In this document: positions 7,673 through 28,894 of the stretch, piece after piece | How the letters are laid out: each line of letters begins with the position of its first letter | How positions within the stretch are numbered: position 1 is the first letter of the stretch | NCBI GenBank assembly: GCA_002867475.1 | Contig: PKTL01000082.1 | Span: 1 to 48,520, forward strand | DNA length: 48,520 nt | Direction: 5' to 3' | From: Candidatus Woesearchaeota archaeon | GTDB lineage: Archaea; Nanobdellota; Nanobdellia; Woesearchaeales; BM511 | Made by a program: the position numbers and the translations under genes | The notes under the pieces: model-generated | What the model was told of the DNA's origin: nothing | Seen by the model: the letters and a program-made list of their open reading frames with translations, nothing else | Databases searched by the model: none

Positions 7673-8484
7673 ATGAGGATTCTAAAAAAATGGCAGACCC
7701 CTTCAACCCAGACCCATTAAAAGATAAGATTAGGGAAATGATTGGAAGAGCAAAAGAGTTTGAAGACCTAAACTATTTTGCAACAAGTAATTCTATGTGC
7801 TTTCTAAAAGGAGAAAAAGGTGTAGGGAAAACATTTCTGATTCGGAAATTGATAGAAAACCTAAAAAAAGATTATAGGATACTTTACATAGATGCCAATG
7901 GTTTTAGTAAGAATAAGGATATAGAAAAACCAATAGTTACATCAAAGAAGATCTATGAGAAAATAATCAGAAAAAAAGGATTCATTCTGATAATGGATAA
8001 TTGTAATACCTTGACAGACAGGAATCTTGAACGTATAAAATATCATTATGATAAGGATTTCATCACAAGCGTAGTGTTCTCAAATAGTGAATTGCCAGAA
8101 AATGAAAGCATCCAAAGCAGGATAGGTTAAAGAATAATAGATCTAGAAAGATTCACTCCAGAACAAGCCTATAATATTTATCTTTCAAGATCAGAAGGCG
8201 ATCTATCAAGAGTTGATATTGAAGAATTATATGAGAAATCAAAAAACCTAAAAAATTTCATGGAAGAGCTTAGGATAATGCATTCAAAAAACCCAGAGCT
8301 TGAATATATGAAACATGAAATGGATAATAAAGCAAGTGATGTATGTGATTCTTGCGGTTTAAGGCTTGAAGAAGTCTATGGAAAATGGAGATGTAGAAGA
8401 TGCGATACTTATTGCACTTCTTGCGGTGAGAAAGTATCAAAAGATGATAGGGAATGTCCAAGATGTATGGCATTATTTGGTTAA
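7673..8484 (+). pseudogene. Zinc-ribbon AAA+ ATPase subunit, copy 1, broken
   Basis: Decayed paralogue of the gene at 13620-14543. A Walker A motif (GEKGVGKT), the altered Walker B FILIMDNCN and a box ESIQSRIG are followed by an in-frame TAA at 8128-8130. The same frame continues (RIIDLERFTPEQ...) to a double zinc ribbon with four CxxC knuckles ending at 8484. The paralogue reads SRIGNR where this copy has SRIG-stop. A second lesion is near the start: AGGGGTGG (7661-7668) serves ATG 7673, which is one frame away from the homologous reading that is open from 7690; the shift falls in a run of seven A (AAAAAAA before TGG). An A-run contraction plus a nonsense change is simplest. A -1 slip on this heptamer would restore the N-terminus but not remove the stop. 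Confidence 0.8.
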
Positions 8485-8485
8485 G

Positions 8486-9178
8486 ATGAAAAAGAACTGG
8501 TTCGAAAAACATGGATTCAAGTCCAACCCATTATCAATAAAACCTGATTCAGAAATACTGATTGGGTTCACTGAAGAAATAAAAAAACTTCAAAGTGATA
8601 TAGAGCACAAGAAAAGCATATGGGCAATATACGGCGAATTTGGCAGTGGGAAAACAACTCTGATAAAAAAACTTCTTAGAAAATACAAAAACTCAACATA
8701 TTTTAGTCATAGCAGAGTAGACGGATCGATCAGCATAAAAAGATTGATCCAAAAAAGAGTTCCTTTTCTACTTAGATTATTTGGTAAGATGCCAAAAGAT
8801 TCAGTATTATTTCTTGATGAAGCACATGAGATGAATAATAAGGAAGTAAATGAGATAATGAATTATTACAAGTCTGGAAATATCAAGAACCTCATACTAA
8901 TAAATCCTAATTCTTTAATCGAAGTAAAAAATAAAATAAATCTCAACAAAATATCTAAAGAGAACTCGATAGAGCTTGTACATACAAGATTAGATAGTAA
9001 AGACTTGATATCTGTCCAAGCGTTAAGTATGATCTATGATTTTTCAAAAGGTAACCCTCGAAGGTTGTTAGAATATGCGGAACGTGCAATAAAGATAGCT
9101 GATGAGATAGGCGATGGTAGAGCAACAGATAAGCATGCCATACTTTTACGAGAATCATTAAATGATCAGCAGATTTGA
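8486..9178 (+). CDS. Short AAA+ ATPase subunit, copy 1
   Basis: A 230-residue P-loop ATPase of the ExeA/Orc1-Cdc6-like AAA+ group. N-terminal box NWFEKHGFKSNPLSIKP, Walker A GEFGSGKTT, Walker B VLFLDEAHE, and a sensor-2-like KGNPRRLLEYAE in the lid. There is no DNA-binding or zinc domain. The SRIGNR box of its partner family is replaced by NKISKENSIEL, so no arginine finger is evident. ATG 8486 begins one base after the stop of the zinc-ribbon pseudogene, so it was built for translational coupling; an upstream ATG in the same frame would overlap the zinc ribbon and is unlikely. Its substrate is unknown. Confidence 0.8.
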   Translation: MKKNWFEKHGFKSNPLSIKPDSEILIGFTEEIKKLQSDIEHKKSIWAIYGEFGSGKTTLIKKLLRKYKNSTYFSHSRVDGSISIKRLIQKRVPFLLRLFGKMPKDSVLFLDEAHEMNNKEVNEIMNYYKSGNIKNLILINPNSLIEVKNKINLNKISKENSIELVHTRLDSKDLISVQALSMIYDFSKGNPRRLLEYAERAIKIADEIGDGRATDKHAILLRESLNDQQI

Positions 9179-9185
9179 TAATATT

Positions 9186-9359
9186 CTAAAATTTTAGGTG
9201 TTCATGTATAATAAATTTATATAGATACCAAGCAGCAAGAATCAATGATATAAGAAGGATGGATTCAAAAATAAATCTTTGGATTCCAGAAACTCCATAA
9301 ACTATGAATAAGAAACAGATGAGTGCAATCATTATATATATCATTGACCAATTTATCAT
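9186..9359 (-). CDS. Small two-helix membrane protein (57 aa)
   Basis: A short open frame with two hydrophobic helices: residues about 6-22 (MIYIMIALICFLFIVYG) and about 30-47 (IFESILLISLILAAWYLY), separated by a short polar turn and ending in KFIIHEHLKF. A TATA-like ATTTAAATA at about 9381-9392 lies some 27 nt upstream of ATG 9359, overlapping the stop of the Nudix gene, which fits a leaderless promoter. No family is recognised. The clean amphipathic layout and the well-placed promoter are the evidence for a real gene. Confidence 0.6.
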   Translation of the reverse strand: MINWSMIYIMIALICFLFIVYGVSGIQRFIFESILLISLILAAWYLYKFIIHEHLKF

Positions 9360-9380
9360 AAATGGTACACACTTTCTTGA

Positions 9381-9872
9381 TTATTTAAATATTTGTTTAA
9401 AAGAATCGATTATAATCTCAGTATACTCTTTAGGATTTTGTAAGACGTCTTCTTGTAGGTTTTTCATATCTTTAAAATAAGATTCTTCAACCTCATCTTC
9501 TTGATCTATGAAAGGGCCTTTATTATATGTTTTGAAAACAGTTACAAATTTTGGGCTTCCGTCACTTGAACTTTTGAACTTAAACCATTCAAAAAGGTCG
9601 CTTTTACCATTTTCTTCTTCAAGAAATTCTCTTACTGCGGCAGATTTATAGTTTTCTCCACTATTTACATGACCTCCAGGAATACTTAGTTTTGATGGTG
9701 CAACATCACAAAGTTCACTTCTTTTTTGAATCAATAATTTTTTTTCGGTTTCATCTTCAAAACAGAATATCAAGCTAACTCTATGAAGAAGCTGTCTTTC
9801 ATGTGCATCGCTTCTAAGACGCTTTCCAATCACCTCATCATTGTCATTAACAATATCTAGATATTCTTTCAT
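9381..9872 (-). CDS. Nudix hydrolase (IDI/YfcD-like)
   Basis: A 163-residue Nudix enzyme that hydrolyses a nucleoside diphosphate linked to another group. The Nudix box begins at G67 (GHVNSGE, then seven residues to REFLEEENG), with the metal-binding EE pair. The box has one extra residue before its final glycine compared with the consensus. The N-terminus (EYLDIVNDNDEVIGKRLRSD, then HERQLLHRVSL) is typical of the isopentenyl-diphosphate-isomerase-like/YfcD branch; isomerase activity itself is not implied. It lies 3 nt downstream of the unknown gene at 9876-10799 and is co-transcribed with it. Confidence 0.88.
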   Translation of the reverse strand: MKEYLDIVNDNDEVIGKRLRSDAHERQLLHRVSLIFCFEDETEKKLLIQKRSELCDVAPSKLSIPGGHVNSGENYKSAAVREFLEEENGKSDLFEWFKFKSSSDGSPKFVTVFKTYNKGPFIDQEDEVEESYFKDMKNLQEDVLQNPKEYTEIIIDSFKQIFK

Positions 9873-9875
9873 AAA

Positions 9876-10799
9876 TCAAATAGAAAAAAATGGTGCTTTA
9901 TTAGTTTTCCTATTGGCATTTTTAGCTTTCAATCTTACAAGTTCTCTTTTTATAGGATTATTTCCTGTAAATGCATAAGCTTCTCCAATTATTTCAGGAT
10001 CATTTTGATCTATCAAATAATTAAAGTTTAGATCGTTTAGGTAAGTATTACCGCGTATAAAAATCTCATCTAAGTTTGGTTTAGAATCCATAAAGAAAGT
10101 ATCCTTATATTCTTCTGGAGCACAAATAATAACATTTCTCAACCATTTTATATTTAGGTGTCTTTTCATTTCTTTTTGACTGAAATAATTTGTGAGATCA
10201 GATAATTCTTTAAAAAGCTTCGAATAGTATACCATTTCTTTGTTCCCTAAGCTTGGATGCTTTTCAATGTTATTTGTTATTCTTTCTATCAATCTATAGT
10301 AATCTCTGTTTTTTATATTTTTTTCAACATATCTTAATATCTCTTCTGGATTGACTCCTTTGTTTCTTAGATACAAGAAATAACTTGTTTGTGCTTCACT
10401 AATATCAAAAAGTCCTTCACTTATTATCTTTTCACTAACAGGATGAAGAAATAAATTAAGACTTCTTGAGCCTTTTATCTTGGATATGTCTTCAAGTGAT
10501 TCATATTCGGGAATTGGATGTTCTGAATAGTTGTTTCCTTTGTAGATTATTATCCAAGATTCATCAATCTTATCTTCAAGTCTATTTCTTATTATGTCAA
10601 TTGCATGCTTTGATGATTCTCTTTCAGTAAATATTCCGTGAAACCTGATTTTAGGAAAGAGAGGTGATTCAAATATTTCATATTTTGCACTTGCAAGATT
10701 ATCAGGTCTTTTCTTTAGATGTGATTCATAATCAACTAGCTTAGGATTCTCTTTGTTACTATCTTCGGCCTTTTTGAAAGGAAGAATTATGCCGCTCAT
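9876..10799 (-). CDS. Uncharacterised protein (307 aa)
   Basis: I do not recognise this protein. It has no signal peptide or membrane segment. The N-terminal third mixes strands (KIRFHGIFTERESSKHAIDI, then SWIIIYKG) with loops; the middle is helical and rich in aromatic and charged residues (YRLIERITNNIEKHPSL); the C-terminus is very basic (RELVRLKAKNANRKTNK). The gene leads a two-gene operon with the Nudix hydrolase, separated by 3 nt, and diverges from the Kef antiporter across about 108 bp. Possible involvement in nucleotide or RNA processing is suggested only by the Nudix partner and the basic tail. Confidence 0.7.
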   Translation of the reverse strand: MSGIILPFKKAEDSNKENPKLVDYESHLKKRPDNLASAKYEIFESPLFPKIRFHGIFTERESSKHAIDIIRNRLEDKIDESWIIIYKGNNYSEHPIPEYESLEDISKIKGSRSLNLFLHPVSEKIISEGLFDISEAQTSYFLYLRNKGVNPEEILRYVEKNIKNRDYYRLIERITNNIEKHPSLGNKEMVYYSKLFKELSDLTNYFSQKEMKRHLNIKWLRNVIICAPEEYKDTFFMDSKPNLDEIFIRGNTYLNDLNFNYLIDQNDPEIIGEAYAFTGNNPIKRELVRLKAKNANRKTNKAPFFSI

Positions 10800-10907
10800 A
10801 AAGTCATCAAATCAATTCTAATATAAAAGTTTTTTGAAATGTAACTACTAAATAATTATAAACACTTTGCCAAAAACCTTATAAATCCTTCAATCTAGAA
10901 TCAATTT

Positions 10908-12602
10908 ATGGATGAATTTTTTTTTGATATAGGTCTAATAATAATTCTTGCAAGCACGTTTGGTTATGTCGCAAGACTTCTAAAACAACCAATAATACCT
11001 GCATATATCTTGGCTGGTGCAATATTTGGTCCAATCCTTGGAATAATAGATAATGGAGATATAATAAGAACCTTATCAGAGATAGGTATAGCTTTCCTTC
11101 TTTTTACAGTAGGTTTAGAGCTTGAACTAAAAAAATTAAGAGATATTGGAAACGTTGCAACTCTTGGCGGTCTCATACAGTTTGCATCGCTTTTCGGTTT
11201 GGGATTTTTCACAGCGGCACTCCTTGGATATTTCAAGCTTGAAGCAGTATACATCGCACTCATCTTAGTATTTAGCAGTACGATGGTAGTGATAAAGATT
11301 CTTTCAGACAAAAAAGAGCTTGATAGTCTTCATGGAAGGATAATAATAGGTCTTTTACTTATGCAAGACATTCTTGCAATATTTGCAATATCTATTCTTG
11401 GGTCATTAAACGATTTTTCATTACAAACAATGATGCTTTCATTGATAATATTATTCTTGCTCATAGTTTTCGCACTGATTGCTTCAAAAGTGATATTTCC
11501 AAAGATATTCAAGTTTGCAGCAAAAAGTCCAGAACTATTATTCCTTGTTAGTGTAGCAGTGGCATTCACATTTTCTATAATCTTTGAGATACTCGGATTT
11601 TCTATAGCGATAGGATCCTTTGTTGCAGGTGTCAGTCTAGGTAACTTACCTTACAATCTAGAGATAGCAAGTAGGGTTCGAAGCTTAAAAGATTTCTTTG
11701 CAACAGTTTTTTTTGTAGCGTTAGGTGTACAATTGGTATTTGGAGATATATCAAAACTTATAGTGCCAATAATTGTACTGACATTTTTTACGATAATAAT
11801 CAAAACATTGTTCAACTTTATACTTATAGCACTTTTTGGATATGAGAAAAGAACCTCTTTTATAACAGCGATAAGTCTTGCACAGATTTCAGAATTCGCA
11901 CTTATAATAATAGGTTTTGGATATGCACAAGGTCATATAGGTTCAGAATTCTTAAGCCTAACAATAATGGTTGCAACTATCACAATAATGGTTTCAACAT
12001 ATTTTATAAAGTTCAGTGCAGGAATCTATAATTCAATAAGATCTTATTTGAAAATATTCAATTTTTTAATAACTGAAAAACATGTGCTTCATAATTTCAG
12101 TGATGAAAAAAAACATGACGTTCTTCTTATAGGTTATGATAGAATAGGGTATGCAATATTTAAAGGTTTAAAGAAATTAAGTGACCGGATTCTCGTTGTA
12201 GATTTTAATCCGGACATAATAAAGAAACTTGTTAGAAAGCACATAAATTGTATATATGGTGACATTGGTGATATGGAGATACTTGAAAAGATCGATTTTA
12301 AAGATCTTAAGATGGTAGTTTCTACCATACCTGAAATACGTGAAAATATGATGCTTGTAAAAAAAGTGAAAGCAGTAAATGAAGAAACTCCTATATTTGT
12401 AACTTGTATGGATGTCGATGAAGCATTAGAGCTATATGATTCTGGTGCTGATTATGTTATACTTCCTCATTTTTTAGGTGGAGAACATGTAAGTCTTATG
12501 TTAGAGGATATAAGTCAAGATATAACAAAACTGGTCACAAACAAGGTTGAGCACATAAAAGAGCTTCATATAAGAAAAGAGCATCACCATCACAATTACT
12601 AA
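10908..12602 (+). CDS. Kef-type cation:proton antiporter with RCK domain, copy 1
   Basis: Monovalent cation:proton antiporter of the CPA2 family, 564 residues. About 12 membrane segments (residues 1-385) include the family glutamine-proline bend LLKQPIIPAYILAGAIFGP and GLLLMQDILAIF. A cytosolic RCK/TrkA-N Rossmann domain starts near residue 404 (HDVLLIGYDRIGYAIFKGL) and would gate transport by nucleotide binding. The end is histidine-rich (EHHHHNY). A TATA-like ATAAACACTT/CTTATAAATCC region precedes the ATG closely, with no Shine-Dalgarno. MscS follows 33 nt later. A paralogue with the same layout is at 41035-42747. Confidence 0.93.
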   Translation: MDEFFFDIGLIIILASTFGYVARLLKQPIIPAYILAGAIFGPILGIIDNGDIIRTLSEIGIAFLLFTVGLELELKKLRDIGNVATLGGLIQFASLFGLGFFTAALLGYFKLEAVYIALILVFSSTMVVIKILSDKKELDSLHGRIIIGLLLMQDILAIFAISILGSLNDFSLQTMMLSLIILFLLIVFALIASKVIFPKIFKFAAKSPELLFLVSVAVAFTFSIIFEILGFSIAIGSFVAGVSLGNLPYNLEIASRVRSLKDFFATVFFVALGVQLVFGDISKLIVPIIVLTFFTIIIKTLFNFILIALFGYEKRTSFITAISLAQISEFALIIIGFGYAQGHIGSEFLSLTIMVATITIMVSTYFIKFSAGIYNSIRSYLKIFNFLITEKHVLHNFSDEKKHDVLLIGYDRIGYAIFKGLKKLSDRILVVDFNPDIIKKLVRKHINCIYGDIGDMEILEKIDFKDLKMVVSTIPEIRENMMLVKKVKAVNEETPIFVTCMDVDEALELYDSGADYVILPHFLGGEHVSLMLEDISQDITKLVTNKVEHIKELHIRKEHHHHNY

Positions 12603-12635
12603 AAGCTTATAAATATAATTTCATATTTATTTATT

Positions 12636-13496
12636 ATGGTAGATATCTCGTTCTTGATGCAATGGAATATTATTCCTATAGTGTTTGTTCTATTTTTCAC
12701 TTTAATTATTTCAGCAATATTTCGAAAGTGGATGCAAAAACATATTGATATATCTACAAAATTTTTAAAAGTTGATGCCACAAGTTATAGATTCTTTAAA
12801 AATAGTATTACTGGTTTGATATATTTGATTGGTATGGGTTTAGTCATATATCTTGTACCTTCATTAAGATCTCTTGCGGTAAGCGTATTTGCCGGAGCAG
12901 GAATCCTTGCGATAATAATAGGTTTCGCATCACAACAAGCGTTTAGTAACATAGTAAGTGGTATATTCATAGTAATATTCAAGCCATTTAGAGTTGGTGA
13001 TTGGATAAAGACTCAAGGAAATATTTATGGTGTTGTAGAGGATATAAATCTTAGACATACAACTGTTAAGGATTTTGAGAATAAAAGATACATAATACCT
13101 AACAATATTATCTCAAATGAGACTATCGAGAATCTTTCTATTGGTGATGAAAGAATAAGAAAACATGTGGAATTTGGAATAAGTTATGATAGTGATGTTG
13201 ATAAAGCAATAAAAATAATAAGAAGCGAAGTTAAAAAGCATCCTCTTTGGACAGATCAAAGGACAAAAAAAGAGAAAGATTCGGGCGAAGAGGATGTCCC
13301 AATAAAAGTTATATCTCTTGGAGATTTTTCAGTTAATATTAGAGCTTATGTTTGGGTGAAGAATCCTAGTGATTCATGGATAATCTATACAGATCTTTTG
13401 AAAAGTGTGAAGAAAAGATTTGATAGTGAAGGTATTGAAATTCCTTTCCCTTATAGGACAATTGTAATGAAAGATAGTAAGAAAAATAAAAAATAA
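12636..13496 (+). CDS. mscS: Small-conductance mechanosensitive channel, MscS family
   Basis: Membrane channel opened by tension during hypo-osmotic shock. The 286-residue protein has three N-terminal helices (about 8-30, 54-76, 80-112); the third is the pore helix AGAGILAIIIGFASQQAFSN with regularly spaced Ala/Gly. The beta domain FKPFRVGDWIKTQGN and VVEDINLRHTTVKDFENKR follows, then the alpha/beta vestibule domain. Length equals the basic MscS plan. A TATA-like TTATAAATATA lies 25-30 nt before the ATG, so it can be transcribed apart from the antiporter gene. With the two Kef genes and a potassium channel it forms part of the turgor and ion-balance gene set. Confidence 0.94.
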   Translation: MVDISFLMQWNIIPIVFVLFFTLIISAIFRKWMQKHIDISTKFLKVDATSYRFFKNSITGLIYLIGMGLVIYLVPSLRSLAVSVFAGAGILAIIIGFASQQAFSNIVSGIFIVIFKPFRVGDWIKTQGNIYGVVEDINLRHTTVKDFENKRYIIPNNIISNETIENLSIGDERIRKHVEFGISYDSDVDKAIKIIRSEVKKHPLWTDQRTKKEKDSGEEDVPIKVISLGDFSVNIRAYVWVKNPSDSWIIYTDLLKSVKKRFDSEGIEIPFPYRTIVMKDSKKNKK

Positions 13497-13619
13497 TGGG
13501 TGTTTTATCCTCGATTCAACGAATATTGAATTAAATCATCACTTTAAAATAATAAAAAATAATTAACTTTATATATTACTTGTTCTTCAACAATATTATA
13601 TCTATTACAGGTGGTTTAT

Positions 13620-14543
13620 GTGGAAGACAGATGGTACGAACAATATGACTTTGATGATAACCCTTTCTTGATTGATCCAATATCAGATGAGCCAAGGCAA
13701 CTTATTGGAAGAGAGGAAGAGGAAAAAGAGATAATATATAGGATTCTATCAAGCAATATGATCTTTATAGAAAGTGCAAAAGGAAGAGGTAAGACATCAC
13801 TTCTTAGGCACGCAATTGAGAACTTTAGAGGTCATGGCAAAGTTATATATGTCGATGCTAATAAGGTCCAAAAGACAATAAATGTTGAACTCCTTCTAAA
13901 AGGTGCAGCTAAAGTTCGAAGTGGAATCATGGGAAAAAAACCAAAAAATCTGATACTTCTTCTAGATAATATTGAATCAATGACACAGCGAAACTGGGAA
14001 AGGATAAAATATTATTTTGATCAAAACTACTTAAAAAGTGTTGTATTCACAGGAAAAAATTATTCAAAGGTTAAGTTTCCAGAAAGCATCAAAAGCAGGA
14101 TAGGAAATAGAGTAATAAAGCTTCCAAACTTAGAATCTGATGAAGCATTGCAGATAATCCAAGATAGACTTGGTGATGATTATGAAGAAATACTTTCAGA
14201 CGAAGAAATCATGCAATTATACAAAATTTCAAAAGGAGACCTGAAAAATTTTATAACAAATAATTATAGGCTTGCACAATATAAATATGATGCTGGCAAA
14301 TCAGAAATAATGGATCTTGATGAGATAAAAACTGCAACAAGGATGGATGTAACTGAAGTCTATGAAGTTGACGATGAGGATGAAATTGAAGCAAATCTTT
14401 GTGAAGAATGTGAATCTAAACTTGTGAAGATTGGACAATATTACAGGTGCAAGGATTGTGATAATTTCTGTACAAATTGTGGAGCTCTAATTGCTGAGGA
14501 TGATAAGAAATGTCCTGAATGCAATGTGGAATTTGAAGATTAA
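13620..14543 (+). CDS. Zinc-ribbon AAA+ ATPase subunit, copy 2 (intact, likely hydrolysis-deficient)
   Basis: Intact 307-residue partner of the short AAA+ subunit. Order: N-terminal box RWYEQYDFDDNPFLIDP, Walker A SAKGRGKTS, Walker B-like LILLLDNIE, box IKSRIGNRVIKLP, lid, acidic linker (EVDDEDEIEA), then a double zinc ribbon with four knuckles CEEC, CKDC, CTNC and CPEC. Two features stand out: the Walker B glutamate is asparagine (DN), and the lid lacks the NPR sensor motif (GDLKNFITN). ATP binding without hydrolysis is expected, while the arginine-finger-like SRIGNR is kept. GTG 13620 is preferred because GGTGG (13610-13614) lies just upstream; GTG 13611 is possible. The short subunit follows after 11 nt. 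Confidence 0.82.
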   Translation: MEDRWYEQYDFDDNPFLIDPISDEPRQLIGREEEEKEIIYRILSSNMIFIESAKGRGKTSLLRHAIENFRGHGKVIYVDANKVQKTINVELLLKGAAKVRSGIMGKKPKNLILLLDNIESMTQRNWERIKYYFDQNYLKSVVFTGKNYSKVKFPESIKSRIGNRVIKLPNLESDEALQIIQDRLGDDYEEILSDEEIMQLYKISKGDLKNFITNNYRLAQYKYDAGKSEIMDLDEIKTATRMDVTEVYEVDDEDEIEANLCEECESKLVKIGQYYRCKDCDNFCTNCGALIAEDDKKCPECNVEFED

Positions 14544-14554
14544 AGGTGATACTT

Positions 14555-15268
14555 ATGGATATTTGGTATGAACAATTAGGATTTATAGAAAACCCATTTT
14601 CAATTAAGCCAGGCGCATATGATGATGAAATTTTTGGATATTCCAACGAATTGAAAAAAGTTTATAGTGCTATGAATAAAGGCGGTGTATGGTTTGTAGA
14701 AGGTAATTTTGGTGTAGGAAAAACAAGTATGCTAAAACAGATAATAAATAATTTTAAGGGAAGAAAAAGAGTTATATACTACTCAGCTAACAGAAGTGAA
14801 GGTGGTATTAATTTCAAACAGCTTCTAAAGAACAGAAATGGTTTTTTTCAAAGATGGTTTGGTATCCTTCCAAAAAACATGATACTCTTGCTTGATGAAG
14901 CGCACACTATTAATTCTCATGATGCAACAGCAATTGAGAAATATATGAAATCAAAAAATTTCAAGACAATTATCTTTGCAAGCGACAAGGTAAGTGATGT
15001 CCAAATGACTCCTTGGCTAAAGAAAAAGATGGGGGATAAGAAAATATTGAAACTTCAACCTATAACTGAAAACAATGCTATAAAGCTTGTTAGAAATAGG
15101 GTTGGCGATCTGAAATTCCTTCCAAATTCAATCATAAAAAAAGTTTTTGCAAAGTCTGATAAGAATCCAAGAAAGATGCTTGAAAATTTAGAAGATCTTT
15201 GCAGGTATGCTATGGAAATAGGTGCAAAAAAGATTGCTGAAGCACATCTAAAAAAAGTCTTAAAATAA
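14555..15268 (+). CDS. Short AAA+ ATPase subunit, copy 2
   Basis: A 237-residue paralogue of the gene at 8486-9178. N-terminal box IWYEQLGFIENPFSIKPG, Walker A GNFGVGKTS, Walker B ILLLDEAHT with its glutamate intact, and lid motif DKNPRKMLENLEDL with the sensor-2-like arginine. The position matching SRIGNR reads KKKMGDKKILKL, so the arginine finger is absent. ATG 14555 is chosen over GTG 14546 because AGGTGAT (14544-14550) is the ribosome site. It forms a two-gene operon with the zinc-ribbon subunit. The substrate is unknown; DNA remodelling as in ExeA/Orc-like ATPases is one option, membrane-associated chaperone work another. Confidence 0.82.
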   Translation: MDIWYEQLGFIENPFSIKPGAYDDEIFGYSNELKKVYSAMNKGGVWFVEGNFGVGKTSMLKQIINNFKGRKRVIYYSANRSEGGINFKQLLKNRNGFFQRWFGILPKNMILLLDEAHTINSHDATAIEKYMKSKNFKTIIFASDKVSDVQMTPWLKKKMGDKKILKLQPITENNAIKLVRNRVGDLKFLPNSIIKKVFAKSDKNPRKMLENLEDLCRYAMEIGAKKIAEAHLKKVLK

Positions 15269-22571: not shown

Positions 22572-24641
22572 ATGAGAATAAAAAAATTGGTCCTGGACAA
22601 TATAAGAAGCTATAGGTCAGAAACTATCAATTTTCCAGATGGTTCAATACTTCTCCAAGGAGATATTGGAAGTGGGAAATCAACAATACTTCTATCAATT
22701 GAGTTTGCGTTATTTGGTTTTCGAAGGCAAGACCTTTCAGGAAGCACACTTTTAAGACATGGTGAGTCAAATGGGGGTGTTGAGCTTCATTTTGAGATAG
22801 AAAAAAATAAGATAATCATCAAACGAACCTTGAAAAGAACCAATAACGCCATAAAGCAAGAAGCAGGTTATATAATAATAAACGATTCTAAGCATGACCT
22901 AACGCCAATCGAATTAAAAAGTAAGATATTGGATCTATTAGGATACCCTGAAGACTTATTATCAAAAACAAAAGAATCAATATACAGATACACAGTATAT
23001 ACTCCTCAAGAATCTATGAAACAGATAGTGTTTGCAGATGTACAAGAACGACTTGACATATTAAGAAGAGTATTTGGGATTGATAAATATAAGAGGATAA
23101 AAGAAAATCTAGCAATATATCTCAAAGAGACCAAGAAAAAAATGGCATATCAGCAAGGAGCCTATGAAGGTATGGAAGAACTTCAAAAAGAACTAGCAAA
23201 TCTAGAAAAAGAATCAACAGATGCAAAAAAGGTTTTGATAGATCTCGAATCCAGATCAAAAGAATCAAAAGAAGCTTTAGAAAAAAAAGACCTGGAATTC
23301 AAAGAATACAGTAAAAAGATATCTGAATATGAATCTCATAAGTCAAAGATCGATGTAATAAACCAAAAAATTGTGCAGATCGAAAATATATCTATAAGGA
23401 ACAAAAAGAAAAAAGAAGAATATGTATTAAATCTTGATGCTGAAAAGAAGAAAATAGAAGGTAAAACCTTCGATGTATCAAAATTGAGCAAATTTCTTGA
23501 TGAGCTGAACATAAAGAAAAAAGATTTAGAAGAAAAAAGATCCGAACTATCACAAAAAAAAGCAGTGAGCAACTCAAAGATAAACGACTCAAAAAATCTA
23601 ACTTCAAAAATCGCATCTATAGATAACTGCCCTATGTGCATGCAAGAAGTAGGAAGGGATCATAAAGAATCAATAAGAAATGATTCAAAAAAAATCATAG
23701 ATATCTCAACTGAAAAGATAGTAAAGATTGATTTGACATTGAAAAAGATAGAACATAATCTTGAGATAATATCAAAAAAAGCGATTGATACTCAAGAAAA
23801 AATAAATGGATCAAAAGCTCTTGATATAATAAAAAAAAGTATTGAAGATAAGGAAAAAGAACTAAAAAGCATAATCCATGAATCAACCACATTAGAAAAA
23901 GAAATTCTTGAACTGAAAAAACAAAAAGAAACATTAACAAAAGATTTATCTGAAAAGGACTATGATAAGGAAAAGCTTGCAAATCTAGAATCTGAAAAGA
24001 AAATAACAAACGAAAAATATCAATCTATCATCCTAGAAAAAGCAAGATATGAAGAAAAATCAAAAAATTTCTCCATGCAGAACGAATCCTTGAAAAACCG
24101 TATCAATAAGAAAAAAGAATCAAAGAAAAAATACGAAAGATTAAATTCCCACTATGACATATTAGAATCAAAAATGCTTCCTCTAATAAGCTCAATAGAA
24201 AAACAAGTTATGGGAACAATATACTATGAATTCAATAGCTTATTATCAAAATGGTTCAATCTACTCATTGATGAAGAGCTGTTATCCATAAGAATAGACC
24301 ATGAATTCAGTCCAATACTAGAGCAAAACGGGTACGAAACAACAATAGATAACCTTAGCGGTGGTGAAAAAACAGCGGTGGCATTATCTTATAGGCTCGC
24401 ACTCAATCAAGTAATAAATGACCTTGTAAACACCATAAATACAAAAGATTTCTTAATACTCGATGAACCAACAGATGGATTCTCATCAGAACAATTAGAA
24501 AAATTAAATGAGGTCATAAAAGAGCTTGCAATAAACCAATTGATAATAGTAAGTCACGACCAAAAAATTGAAGGTTTTGTTGAAAATCATATAAATATAG
24601 CAAAATCTAGTCATGAAAGCAGTATCGCATCATTAAATTAG
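22572..24641 (+). CDS. Rad50-like SMC ATPase with zinc hook
   Basis: DNA-repair type ABC ATPase of 689 residues, shorter than most archaeal Rad50 (about 850-900). Walker A GDIGSGKST is in the N-terminal lobe, preceded by IKKLVLDNIRSYRSETINF; two long coiled coils flank a zinc hook C353-PM-C356 (CPMC) that joins dimers; the C-terminal lobe has the signature LSGGEKTAVALSYRLALN and Walker B FLILDEPTDG. Rad50 works with the Mre11 nuclease in end processing, but no mre11 lies beside it in this window. A TATA-like TTTATAT about 30 nt upstream marks a separate promoter. Confidence 0.88.
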   Translation: MRIKKLVLDNIRSYRSETINFPDGSILLQGDIGSGKSTILLSIEFALFGFRRQDLSGSTLLRHGESNGGVELHFEIEKNKIIIKRTLKRTNNAIKQEAGYIIINDSKHDLTPIELKSKILDLLGYPEDLLSKTKESIYRYTVYTPQESMKQIVFADVQERLDILRRVFGIDKYKRIKENLAIYLKETKKKMAYQQGAYEGMEELQKELANLEKESTDAKKVLIDLESRSKESKEALEKKDLEFKEYSKKISEYESHKSKIDVINQKIVQIENISIRNKKKKEEYVLNLDAEKKKIEGKTFDVSKLSKFLDELNIKKKDLEEKRSELSQKKAVSNSKINDSKNLTSKIASIDNCPMCMQEVGRDHKESIRNDSKKIIDISTEKIVKIDLTLKKIEHNLEIISKKAIDTQEKINGSKALDIIKKSIEDKEKELKSIIHESTTLEKEILELKKQKETLTKDLSEKDYDKEKLANLESEKKITNEKYQSIILEKARYEEKSKNFSMQNESLKNRINKKKESKKKYERLNSHYDILESKMLPLISSIEKQVMGTIYYEFNSLLSKWFNLLIDEELLSIRIDHEFSPILEQNGYETTIDNLSGGEKTAVALSYRLALNQVINDLVNTINTKDFLILDEPTDGFSSEQLEKLNEVIKELAINQLIIVSHDQKIEGFVENHINIAKSSHESSIASLN

Positions 24642-24797: not shown

Positions 24798-26075
24798 ATG
24801 CTTGAAAAGTTAATTGACCATCCAAAGACCTTGCTGGTTGATGATATGACCTCATTGGACAGATTATCAGATTTCTATTCATTAGTTTTTCCAACCCATA
24901 ATATAGAAACAGTATCAACCACAGAAAAAGCATTAGAAAAAGTAACCTCAACAGGATATGATCTTGTAATAGCAAGCACTAAATTACCAAAATCAGATGA
25001 TGATAAGCAGCTTTTTTCAGAAATAAAGGAAATGTATGGGTTGGGTCTTCCAGTGGTTTTTTTATCAGAAGATAAAAATATAGAAAATGCAAAAAAAATT
25101 ATAAGAGCTGGCGCAGCATCTTACATAAACACTCCTTTGAATCCTATCAAGTTTAAGGAACTTATAAATGGGATAATTCTTTCAGGCAGGAATGATAATT
25201 TAAATAATCTTAACATTTTGAAATTGATTGATGATAAATCAATAACGGGTCATGAACTTGATTATCTTGAAGGTATAAATATGTTTTCTGTAAACACTCA
25301 ATCTGATATGCTTAAATTGTTGAGAAAAAATCTTATCCATGCAATAATAAATTTTTATGGTGACACTCCTTTAGGTGGTTTTTTGGGATCAGCATATCCT
25401 CATTTAAGGATATATGATGGTCCAATAGAAGATATTGATTTATTAAAGGATGAATTGTTAGATCATTCTTATATTCAAAGTCCATATCTAGTAAAGTCTG
25501 CTTATAAAAAACCAAGCATAATTGGCGTAACTGGTCCTAAAGGTGTTGGAAAAACAACAATTGTTAATGGTATAATGAATTCAAGAAGAATTCCAAACAC
25601 CATAAAATATGTGACTCGAGAGCCAAGACCTTATGAATGTAATTCGAAAGATCATATCTTTTGTGATGATTCAAGTCTTGACAGATTAGTAGATGAAAAA
25701 AACATAATTGAATTTACTAATTGGGGTGAAAGGATAGGGATAGATCTCGATGAGATAGATTCATATATATCAGAGGGAAGTGATGTTATTTTTACAATAC
25801 CTAGATTAGACATAGTTAAACAATTAAGGCAAATATATCCTGATATGAAAATAGCAAACATTGTACCTAATAATTATAAAGTCATACAAGATATAATAAA
25901 AGAAAGAGATCTTTTTATTCGTGATGAAAAGCAGGTAATTGATGATTATCAAAGATTCAAGAATGCTTCCTATGAGCTTGCAACTTTTGTTAATAATCAT
26001 TTTGGAAATGAATTCTGTAAAGAAGTATACATCACTGAACTTATGAGGGTTATTTCTTCTAGGTTTGAAATATAA
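24798..26075 (+). CDS. Pseudo-receiver fused to a guanylate-kinase-like domain
   Basis: A 425-residue protein of unusual architecture. Residues about 10-125 follow the receiver fold (TLLVDDMTSLDR, DLVIASTKLPKSD, VVFLSED, GAASYINTPLNP), but the phospho-acceptor aspartate is replaced around IAS-T and the conserved lysine before the proline is threonine, so phosphorylation is unlikely. A 110-residue linker follows. Residues about 240-425 are guanylate-kinase-like: Walker A GPKGVGKTT, TREPRPYE like the GMP-binding RxPRxxE, then KDHIFCDDSSLDRLV. GMP kinase activity is uncertain; GK-like scaffolds also exist. TATA at 24770-24779, leaderless. Confidence 0.75.
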   Translation: MLEKLIDHPKTLLVDDMTSLDRLSDFYSLVFPTHNIETVSTTEKALEKVTSTGYDLVIASTKLPKSDDDKQLFSEIKEMYGLGLPVVFLSEDKNIENAKKIIRAGAASYINTPLNPIKFKELINGIILSGRNDNLNNLNILKLIDDKSITGHELDYLEGINMFSVNTQSDMLKLLRKNLIHAIINFYGDTPLGGFLGSAYPHLRIYDGPIEDIDLLKDELLDHSYIQSPYLVKSAYKKPSIIGVTGPKGVGKTTIVNGIMNSRRIPNTIKYVTREPRPYECNSKDHIFCDDSSLDRLVDEKNIIEFTNWGERIGIDLDEIDSYISEGSDVIFTIPRLDIVKQLRQIYPDMKIANIVPNNYKVIQDIIKERDLFIRDEKQVIDDYQRFKNASYELATFVNNHFGNEFCKEVYITELMRVISSRFEI

Positions 26076-27147: not shown

Positions 27148-27678
27148 ATGAAACAAGATATAAAACCTATAATATTTTTTTTAACAACGATTTGTACAAT
27201 TGTATCTATAATGGTAGGTTTAGGAGTAATTTTTGGGGCTATAGACTATAAGTTCAATAGTGAAGTCTTTATGGAGACAACATCTTATAATTCGAATCTA
27301 TATATGAATAAAGAATTAGCGGACGAATTGAATACCTATTATGCTGATTCAAAAAGAGAATTTTCTGCATGTATAATTATATCCCAAGAAAAAACACAGG
27401 TGTCAAATGATAATCTAAATATTGATTATTACCTAACTGGGATAGAGGGTCAAGTTAAATATTCAGGGTTCGATCATTCAACAAATGAAATGTGTAATTA
27501 TGGAACAATTCACAGTCATCCGAAAGGAACACCTTACTTTTCTATTGCTGACATCACTGCTTTCAAAAGTAGGATAAAAGAAGGAGAAACATTTGCTGTA
27601 ATAATACATGGAGAAAATGAATTCACATATATAACACGAAATGATTTTGAAGAGAAAAAGGTGGTAATCACAAACTGA
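27148..27678 (+). CDS. Membrane-anchored JAMM/MPN+ metalloprotease-like protein
   Basis: A 176-residue protein with one N-terminal membrane helix (about 7-32) followed by a JAB/MPN domain. The complete JAMM zinc motif is visible: E71 (REFSACI), then H122-S-H124 with seven residues to S132 and D135 (HSHPKGTPYFSIAD). JAMM enzymes remove ubiquitin-like modifiers or cut peptides. Archaeal members are usually cytosolic; this one is tethered, and its side of the membrane cannot be decided with certainty, though the basic N-terminus suggests the catalytic domain faces out. No SAMP-like gene is nearby. Confidence 0.82.
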   Translation: MKQDIKPIIFFLTTICTIVSIMVGLGVIFGAIDYKFNSEVFMETTSYNSNLYMNKELADELNTYYADSKREFSACIIISQEKTQVSNDNLNIDYYLTGIEGQVKYSGFDHSTNEMCNYGTIHSHPKGTPYFSIADITAFKSRIKEGETFAVIIHGENEFTYITRNDFEEKKVVITN

Positions 27679-27844: not shown

Positions 27845-28894
27845 ATGACTTGGTTTAAACAACTAAAATTTGTTGAAAATCCTTTAGATATCAGGCCAAG
27901 CACTATTCTTATAGGTCTTGATGAAGAAGAGGAAAGGCTAAAAAATCATATACAAAAAGGAGAAGTTTGCTTCATAAATGGTTTGACAGGAAGTGGAAAA
28001 ACAAGTCTTCTAAAGAAAATACAAGAAGCAATGAAAGATCACGAATTCATATATCTTGATGCACATGACCTTCCAAAGAACTTTAATCTTGAAGATGAAT
28101 TAAAAAGCAAAAAAAGCATTTTTGACAAGATCACATTTAAAGAATGGCCAAAAAAACCACCTGTGATAATAATAGACGAATTTCAAGAAACAGATAGGAA
28201 TCTCGTATTAAAAATAAGAAGTAAATGGGAAAATCCTATACAAAAAAGGATAAAATCAATAATTTTCGCTCAAATCAGTCATCACCTTCATAATGTTACA
28301 GATAGCTTCAAGGAAAGAATAGGAAATAGAACAATAACTTTATCACCTCTTGACAGCGAGAATCTGAAAAGAATGTTATCAGCAAGACTTTTGAAACGAA
28401 AAAGAAGTTATGCAGATAGATTTGCAGATGAAGCACTTAACATGCTTATATACAGTAGTGGTGGCAATCCAAGACGATTCCTAGAGCAAGCAGACCTAGT
28501 TTTTGACTTTCATTATCAAAGATTCAAAGATATAAATCCTATAATAAAAGAAGGTTACAAGATAAATCATTATGCAGTAAAAGAAATACTTGAATTAAAT
28601 GGGATAAATTGTGAAGGATTTAAAGCAAAGACTGATGTTAAGAAGAAATCAACAGGGGACACATTTGAAACATACTTCACAGAAAATGAAAAGAAAGTAC
28701 TTAATTTTTTGATACAGAAAGGTCCATCAACATACTCTCAGATAGCACTTGGTATCAAGATAAAGAAAGCAATGGTCAAAAGGATAGTTCAAGGCTTAAA
28801 AAAGAAAAATGGTGTCAAGCTTGAAGGAAGAACAGATCAAGGGTACACCTGGAATGTTAGTCCTCATGCTAAGCGGATGACAGTAAAGATTTAA
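27845..28894 (+). CDS. AAA+ ATPase with C-terminal winged helix
   Basis: A 349-residue relative of the cassette ATPases at 7.7-9.2 and 13.6-15.3 kb, but self-sufficient. N-terminal box TWFKQLKFVENPLDIRPS, Walker A GLTGSGKTS, Walker B VIIIDEFQE, arginine box KERIGNRTITL, and sensor-2-like SGGNPRRFLEQAD are all present. Residues about 280-349 form a winged helix (FTENEKKVLNFLIQKG, STYSQIALGIKIKKAMVKRI) as in Orc1/Cdc6-type proteins, although the overall sequence is not a clear Orc1. A DNA-binding ATPase is likely. A TATA-like ATTTAAACC about 30 nt before the ATG suggests a leaderless gene. Confidence 0.82.
   Translation: MTWFKQLKFVENPLDIRPSTILIGLDEEEERLKNHIQKGEVCFINGLTGSGKTSLLKKIQEAMKDHEFIYLDAHDLPKNFNLEDELKSKKSIFDKITFKEWPKKPPVIIIDEFQETDRNLVLKIRSKWENPIQKRIKSIIFAQISHHLHNVTDSFKERIGNRTITLSPLDSENLKRMLSARLLKRKRSYADRFADEALNMLIYSSGGNPRRFLEQADLVFDFHYQRFKDINPIIKEGYKINHYAVKEILELNGINCEGFKAKTDVKKKSTGDTFETYFTENEKKVLNFLIQKGPSTYSQIALGIKIKKAMVKRIVQGLKKKNGVKLEGRTDQGYTWNVSPHAKRMTVKI

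Follow-up and report, generated by a model that had tools for sequence, protein, structure and literature searches.

The window analysed here, that is, the whole 48,520-nucleotide stretch of contig PKTL01000082.1 from a Candidatus Woesearchaeota archaeon, carries five members of an AAA+ ATPase family, with none elsewhere in the 1.67-Mb genome. They are organized as two adjacent pairs, A1-B1 and A2-B2, and a single gene, C (Table 1). A preliminary description had recognized a two-gene cassette occurring twice, with the catalytic motifs split between its members. The motifs are indeed present in A2, B1 and B2, but A1 is interrupted by an in-frame TAA that had been overlooked: it directly follows SRIG, where an SRIG(NR) box had been proposed. 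Moreover, the ATG at 7673 taken as the start of A1 belongs to another frame, the coding start being 7690. When A1 is compared with an intact relative from genome G001, protein identity is 58/145 before the stop and 43/117 after it, and this similarity on both sides suggests that the TAA arose recently, stems from an assembly error or is read through. The two cassettes are separated by genes for a Kef-type exchanger, which has a TrkA-N domain, and for an MscS channel (10908-13496; compare L096:11551-13269); in G001, an exchanger likewise sits between the two pairs.

Table 1. AAA+ genes and motifs in the window, with examples of the membrane-protein gene at other loci
Feature	Coordinates	Strand	Remarks
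A1 (finger-type AAA+ subunit)	7690..8130	+	146-aa ORF; Walker B IMDNCN 7990-8007; TAA 8128-8130 directly after SRIG
A1 continuation after the stop, same frame	8131..8484	+	lid without NPR; double zinc ribbon, all eight cysteines kept
B1 (cis-type AAA+ subunit)	ORF 8366..9178; likely true start ATG 8486	+	FLDEAH, GNPRR
B1 motifs	Walker B DE 8798-8827; lid NPR 9047-9064	+	finger Arg absent
A2 (finger-type AAA+ subunit)	13611..14543	+	P-loop intact; C-terminal double zinc ribbon
A2 motifs	Walker B LLLDNIE, Asn 13968-13970; SRIGNR, finger Arg 14097-14099	+	
A2 lid	KGDLKNF, Lys 14244-14246	+	sensor-2 Arg absent
B2 (cis-type AAA+ subunit)	14546..15268	+	Walker B LLLDEAH, Glu 14897-14899
B2 motifs	NPR lid (sensor-2) Arg 15170-15172; finger position, Lys 15026-15028	+	KKKMGKK at finger position
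C (single-chain relative)	27845..28894	+	Walker-B Glu 28178-28180; finger Arg 28316-28318; lid Arg 28472-28474
Membrane protein, examples	L106:5617-11394; L197:5493-6254; L199:4780-5007		

Relatives of these genes were found in 80 genomes, out of 288 when the order was searched and out of 378 when the class was searched, and a scan of genome contigs with the A8 alignment gave 22 loci, with Woesearchaeota, Nanoarchaeota and DPANN among them. From Woesearchaeota and their relatives, 77 adjacent pairs were taken, in which the upstream gene was called A and the downstream one B by order alone. The finger arginine is present in every A subunit and the lid (sensor-2) arginine in only 8 of the 77, while B subunits carry the Walker-B glutamate (DE) in 77/77 cases and the lid arginine in all 75 whose sequence reaches it; since the pairs share kinship, these counts are not independent, and p-values drawn from them overstate independence and serve only as a guide. 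An arginine occupies the finger position in 7 of the 77 B subunits, the B2 relative of G001 (LRRRIG) being one of them, so that the lack of a finger arginine claimed for the short subunit holds for B1, B2 and most B subunits, but not for all. The P-loop Lys/Arg and Ser/Thr are kept in 53 of the 54 A subunits of the first set. The partition is maintained among A subunits that, the closest relative excepted, are only 28-49% identical to those of the window, a conservation far beyond what chance would be expected to leave at such divergence. A split arisen by chance was considered and rejected. The complementarity of finger and lid thus belongs to the family as a whole.

The same survey changes the weight of two features on which the preliminary description had relied heavily. 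The Walker-B DN attributed to the zinc-ribbon subunit is present in A1 and A2, but it is not general among A subunits (DN 54, DD 14, DE 7, EN 1, DG 1; n=77); the DD and DE states are dispersed through the A tree and Asn is merely the commonest one. The zinc ribbon, in turn, was discarded as the defining mark of the finger subunit, given that most A subunits are devoid of it. Regarding the possibility, raised at the outset, that zinc-ribbon subunits might commonly have DE, this is not so for the zinc-ribbon forms, the DE and DD states being found in some ribbon-less A subunits.

A column scan, in which no motifs were preselected and 226 shared columns were ranked by their divergence between A and B, led to a concordant picture. 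The top eleven columns include the Walker-B glutamate, the finger arginine, the lid arginine and the second arginine of RIGxR. If a column counts as subunit-specific when its conservation reaches at least 80% in one subunit and stays below 25% in the other, seven are specific to A, among them the finger column and four within or close to the helix that follows Walker B, and seven to B, including the Walker-B glutamate, the lid arginine and an N-terminal lysine. None of the 226 columns revealed a B-specific arginine substituting for the finger, and the short subunit thus has no conserved interface arginine of its own on the finger side, another point on which the initial proposal could have failed.

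Of sixteen unpaired genes, L200 and L077 are halves truncated at contig ends, and the remaining ones combine DE, finger arginine and lid arginine in one chain in 14/14 cases. Among them, f111, which has no partner gene, has the A state at 7/7 A-only columns and that of B at 6/7 B-only columns. The tree places it with A (support 0.997), so that close kinship with B does not account for its B states. The coexistence of both column sets in one chain is what a partition into trans and cis faces predicts, and it speaks for a composite A/B ATP site.

The third relative in the window, C, had been described as having all these elements in one chain plus a winged helix, and so it does: its chain combines IIDEFQ, ERIGNR and GNPRR with a winged helix that is TrmB-like (PF01978, E 1.4e-5, just below the cut-off). 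C belongs to a separate clade, outside the heteromer, whose members carry DE in 27/27, the finger in 27/27 and the lid arginine in 26/27 cases. A gene for an SbcC/Rad50-like ATPase lies near C in the window (22572-24641) and adjacent to it in L095, L096 and L099; given this neighbor and the winged helix, C may be a DNA-repair factor. Directly before C, a membrane-anchored JAB-like protein is encoded (27148-27678; PF14464, just below the cut-off), and 24798-26075 encodes an unusual protein in which a guanylate-kinase-like domain comes after a receiver-like one.

From a structural perspective, A and B belong to the AAA+ superfamily both by their matches to Pfam AAA, AAA_14 and AAA_22 and by their fold, the full motif set being held by the pair jointly and not by either subunit alone. 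In the AlphaFold model of B2 (62 alignment rows; pLDDT 92.4, pTM 0.86), finger position 161 ends alpha4 (156-162), ahead of beta5 (167-169), and lid Arg 209 stands at the start of alpha7 (208-224). It has been described that in AAA+ proteins the arginine finger lies between alpha4 and beta5 and sensor 2 at the start of alpha7 (PMC5039278), and the match of these modeled positions supports their assignment as AAA+ finger and sensor 2. The closest solved structures in Foldseek were Orc1/Cdc6, RFC and RuvB, with a best TM-score of about 0.65-0.7 and no close family. An A-B fusion, modeled from L096 with stops read through, gave two well-folded halves and a pTM of 0.53, too low to define the interface, with only 5 paired rows, corresponding to the five pairs that are in frame once stops are read through.

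Beyond the ATPases themselves, the preliminary description had missed a neighbor of the relatives' pairs. Directly upstream of A, and often overlapping it, there is a gene whose product crosses the membrane once and has a conserved helical hairpin on the cytosolic side, in which an A and an H are invariant and a G, a Y and an R nearly so. This gene accompanies 48 of the 77 pairs and the five f111 singles that were fetched (5/5), and none of the 27 C genes. The outer part of the protein varies: it may be missing altogether, or extend to giant Ig-containing proteins and Cys-rich repeats; in f102, a separate transglutaminase-like protein is encoded upstream (L228). Among 378 genomes, 49 carry the membrane gene and 47 of these also the ATPases (Fisher 1e-35, a value inflated by relatedness), and it was not found in the genome of the window (best E 0.05). 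Furthermore, a long charged tail on A or B is present in 38 of the 48 pairs with the membrane gene versus 6 of the 29 without it, although kinship among the pairs makes these numbers non-independent. These tails often end in acidic and aromatic residues (...AEKYY, ...EYKVFVFDN, ...DEQYY). The charged, aromatic-ended tail is borne by A in some families and by B in others (L199, L206 and L213 versus L115, L118 and L119), as if it had moved between subunits. In the window's family, devoid of the membrane gene, A carries the double zinc ribbon, and across pairs the two traits mostly alternate.

Altogether, we favor, with a probability of roughly 80%, an explanation in which A and B form an obligate heteromer that joins the pocket of B to the finger of A, arose by duplication and is probably, for the most part, held at the membrane. 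Each subunit is devoid of the half-site that the other retains, and hence it is very likely that neither works without the other. ATP would be hydrolyzed in the pocket of B, to which P-loop, Walker-B glutamate and sensor-2 arginine all belong, and the site would be completed by the arginine finger and neighboring trans residues from A. Having kept its P-loop, A probably binds ATP structurally, and in most lineages it would be unable to hydrolyze it, with Asn or Asp in the place of Glu, no sensor-2 arginine and no finger offered by B; the DE kept in seven A subunits suggests that A may hydrolyze ATP in some lineages. As for its origin, a self-sufficient gene would have been duplicated and its two faces then partitioned. 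Where the pair is present, the single-pass protein probably anchors the machine to the membrane in most lineages; its cytosolic hairpin may be the docking site for the acidic-aromatic tail at the C-terminus of A or B, and the machine would act on envelope proteins, remodeling or exporting them. The window's family has no such anchor, and there the zinc ribbon on A may replace it. As far as sequence evolution can show, the partition in 77 pairs and the reunion in f111 lend good support to the heteromer itself, in which B would hydrolyze ATP with the arginine of A as had been anticipated. Against the explanation as a whole count the pTM of the fusion, the seven B subunits whose finger position holds an arginine, the missing membrane gene in the window's genome and the interruption of A1.

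It could be argued that A and B are co-transcribed paralogues that build separate homo-oligomers, B using some other trans residue and A acting as an ATP-binding switch, as the P-loops of both subunits and an A-B interface that drew no confident prediction would allow. Nevertheless, adjacency and order are invariant in the 77 pairs, B offers no conserved specific arginine to replace the finger, and both halves are restored in unpaired forms, which makes such an arrangement very improbable. A different question is whether the heteromer could act in replication or repair as an ATPase similar to clamp loaders or ORC, its zinc ribbon binding DNA. This is suggested by the nearest solved folds (Orc1/Cdc6, RFC, RuvB), by the capacity of zinc ribbons to bind nucleic acid, and by relative C, with its winged helix and the SbcC/Rad50-like gene nearby in three loci besides the window. 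However, A and B are devoid of a winged helix and most A subunits of the zinc ribbon, the conserved neighbor is a membrane protein and no replication gene, and the fold likeness is generic at such TM-scores, so that we consider this role unlikely. A role in defence was rejected, with no support from the neighborhood and PADLOC and PHROGs matches only to generic ATPases.

The functional half of our favored explanation, that is, a remodeling ATPase recruited to the membrane, loosely in the manner of Torsin-LAP1 or of Vps4 and its adaptors, by receptors whose outer parts differ and whose cytosolic hairpin is conserved, is tentative and has somewhat less than an even chance of being right. Gene overlap or adjacency in 48 pairs, co-occurrence in genomes and the correlation of tail and hairpin point to it. 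On the other hand, the anchor gene is absent in the window's family, the docking of the tail on the hairpin is something that we infer, and the hairpin has only sub-threshold Pfam matches (DUF1771 in 26/40, TPR_8 in 18, MIT in 5), none of which places it in the DUF1771, TPR or MIT families. It is conceivable, and more speculative, that the family represents a membrane-anchored DPANN AAA+ remodeling machine with interchangeable receptors, in which varied outer parts are combined with one hairpin that docks the tail of the two-subunit ATPase, and whose lineages show an enzyme dividing into cis and trans halves.

Heteromeric AAA+ assemblies with non-hydrolyzing or finger-only subunits include ORC, RFC, the polymerase III clamp loaders, Pex1/Pex6 and the magnesium chelatase ChlI/ChlD. 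The complementary loss of cis and trans elements that defines composite sites of this class is found in A and B; unlike in those systems, there are here two subunits, with losses almost exactly complementary, a living single-chain relative and sequences that are far off. Orc1/Cdc6, RFC and RuvB share the core AAA+ fold with A and B, which in contrast have neither a winged helix nor a clamp-loader collar and show only 13-20% identity; A and B give only weak matches to TIGR02928, and C reaches 20.4 bits against a cut-off of 181.3, which leaves them outside the Orc1/Cdc6 family. The best recurring NCBIfam match is the ExeA-like or XrtA PEP-CTERM-associated ATPase (TIGR03015; 22 of 62 B subunits, E down to 3.6e-10), but B1 of the window falls outside this family, with 32 bits against a curated cut-off of 324.5, and A and B are paired and partitioned. 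The closest working analogue is the Torsin-LAP1 system: Torsin, without a finger, is activated by membrane-bound LAP1 or LULL1, partners of AAA+ fold that provide the arginine, and an alternating ring has been proposed (PMC4358337). The likeness lies in a cis-only AAA+ subunit, a partner supplying the arginine and membrane anchoring. However, LAP1 is devoid of the P-loop, as activators of this type are of nucleotide-binding motifs, and is itself a membrane protein, whereas A has a P-loop and is a soluble, close paralogue of B, the candidate anchor being a third protein. No curated subfamily for the pair appeared in NCBIfam, Pfam and PDB profile searches, no relatives were found in the viral collection, and the open literature yielded no description of a comparable pair from Woesearchaeota or DPANN. 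Thus, the principle of the split site is already known, while the A-B family and the membrane protein beside most relatives' pairs seem to be undescribed.

The coexistence of the single chain f111, of pairs whose A subunit has DE or DD and of pairs whose A subunit has DN makes the transition from homomer to obligate heteromer directly testable by mixing or mutating a few small proteins. Furthermore, the presence of the pair strongly marks a cellular function that has no name yet and is conserved in Woesearchaeota and archaea related to them; the neighboring membrane gene offers a first way into it.
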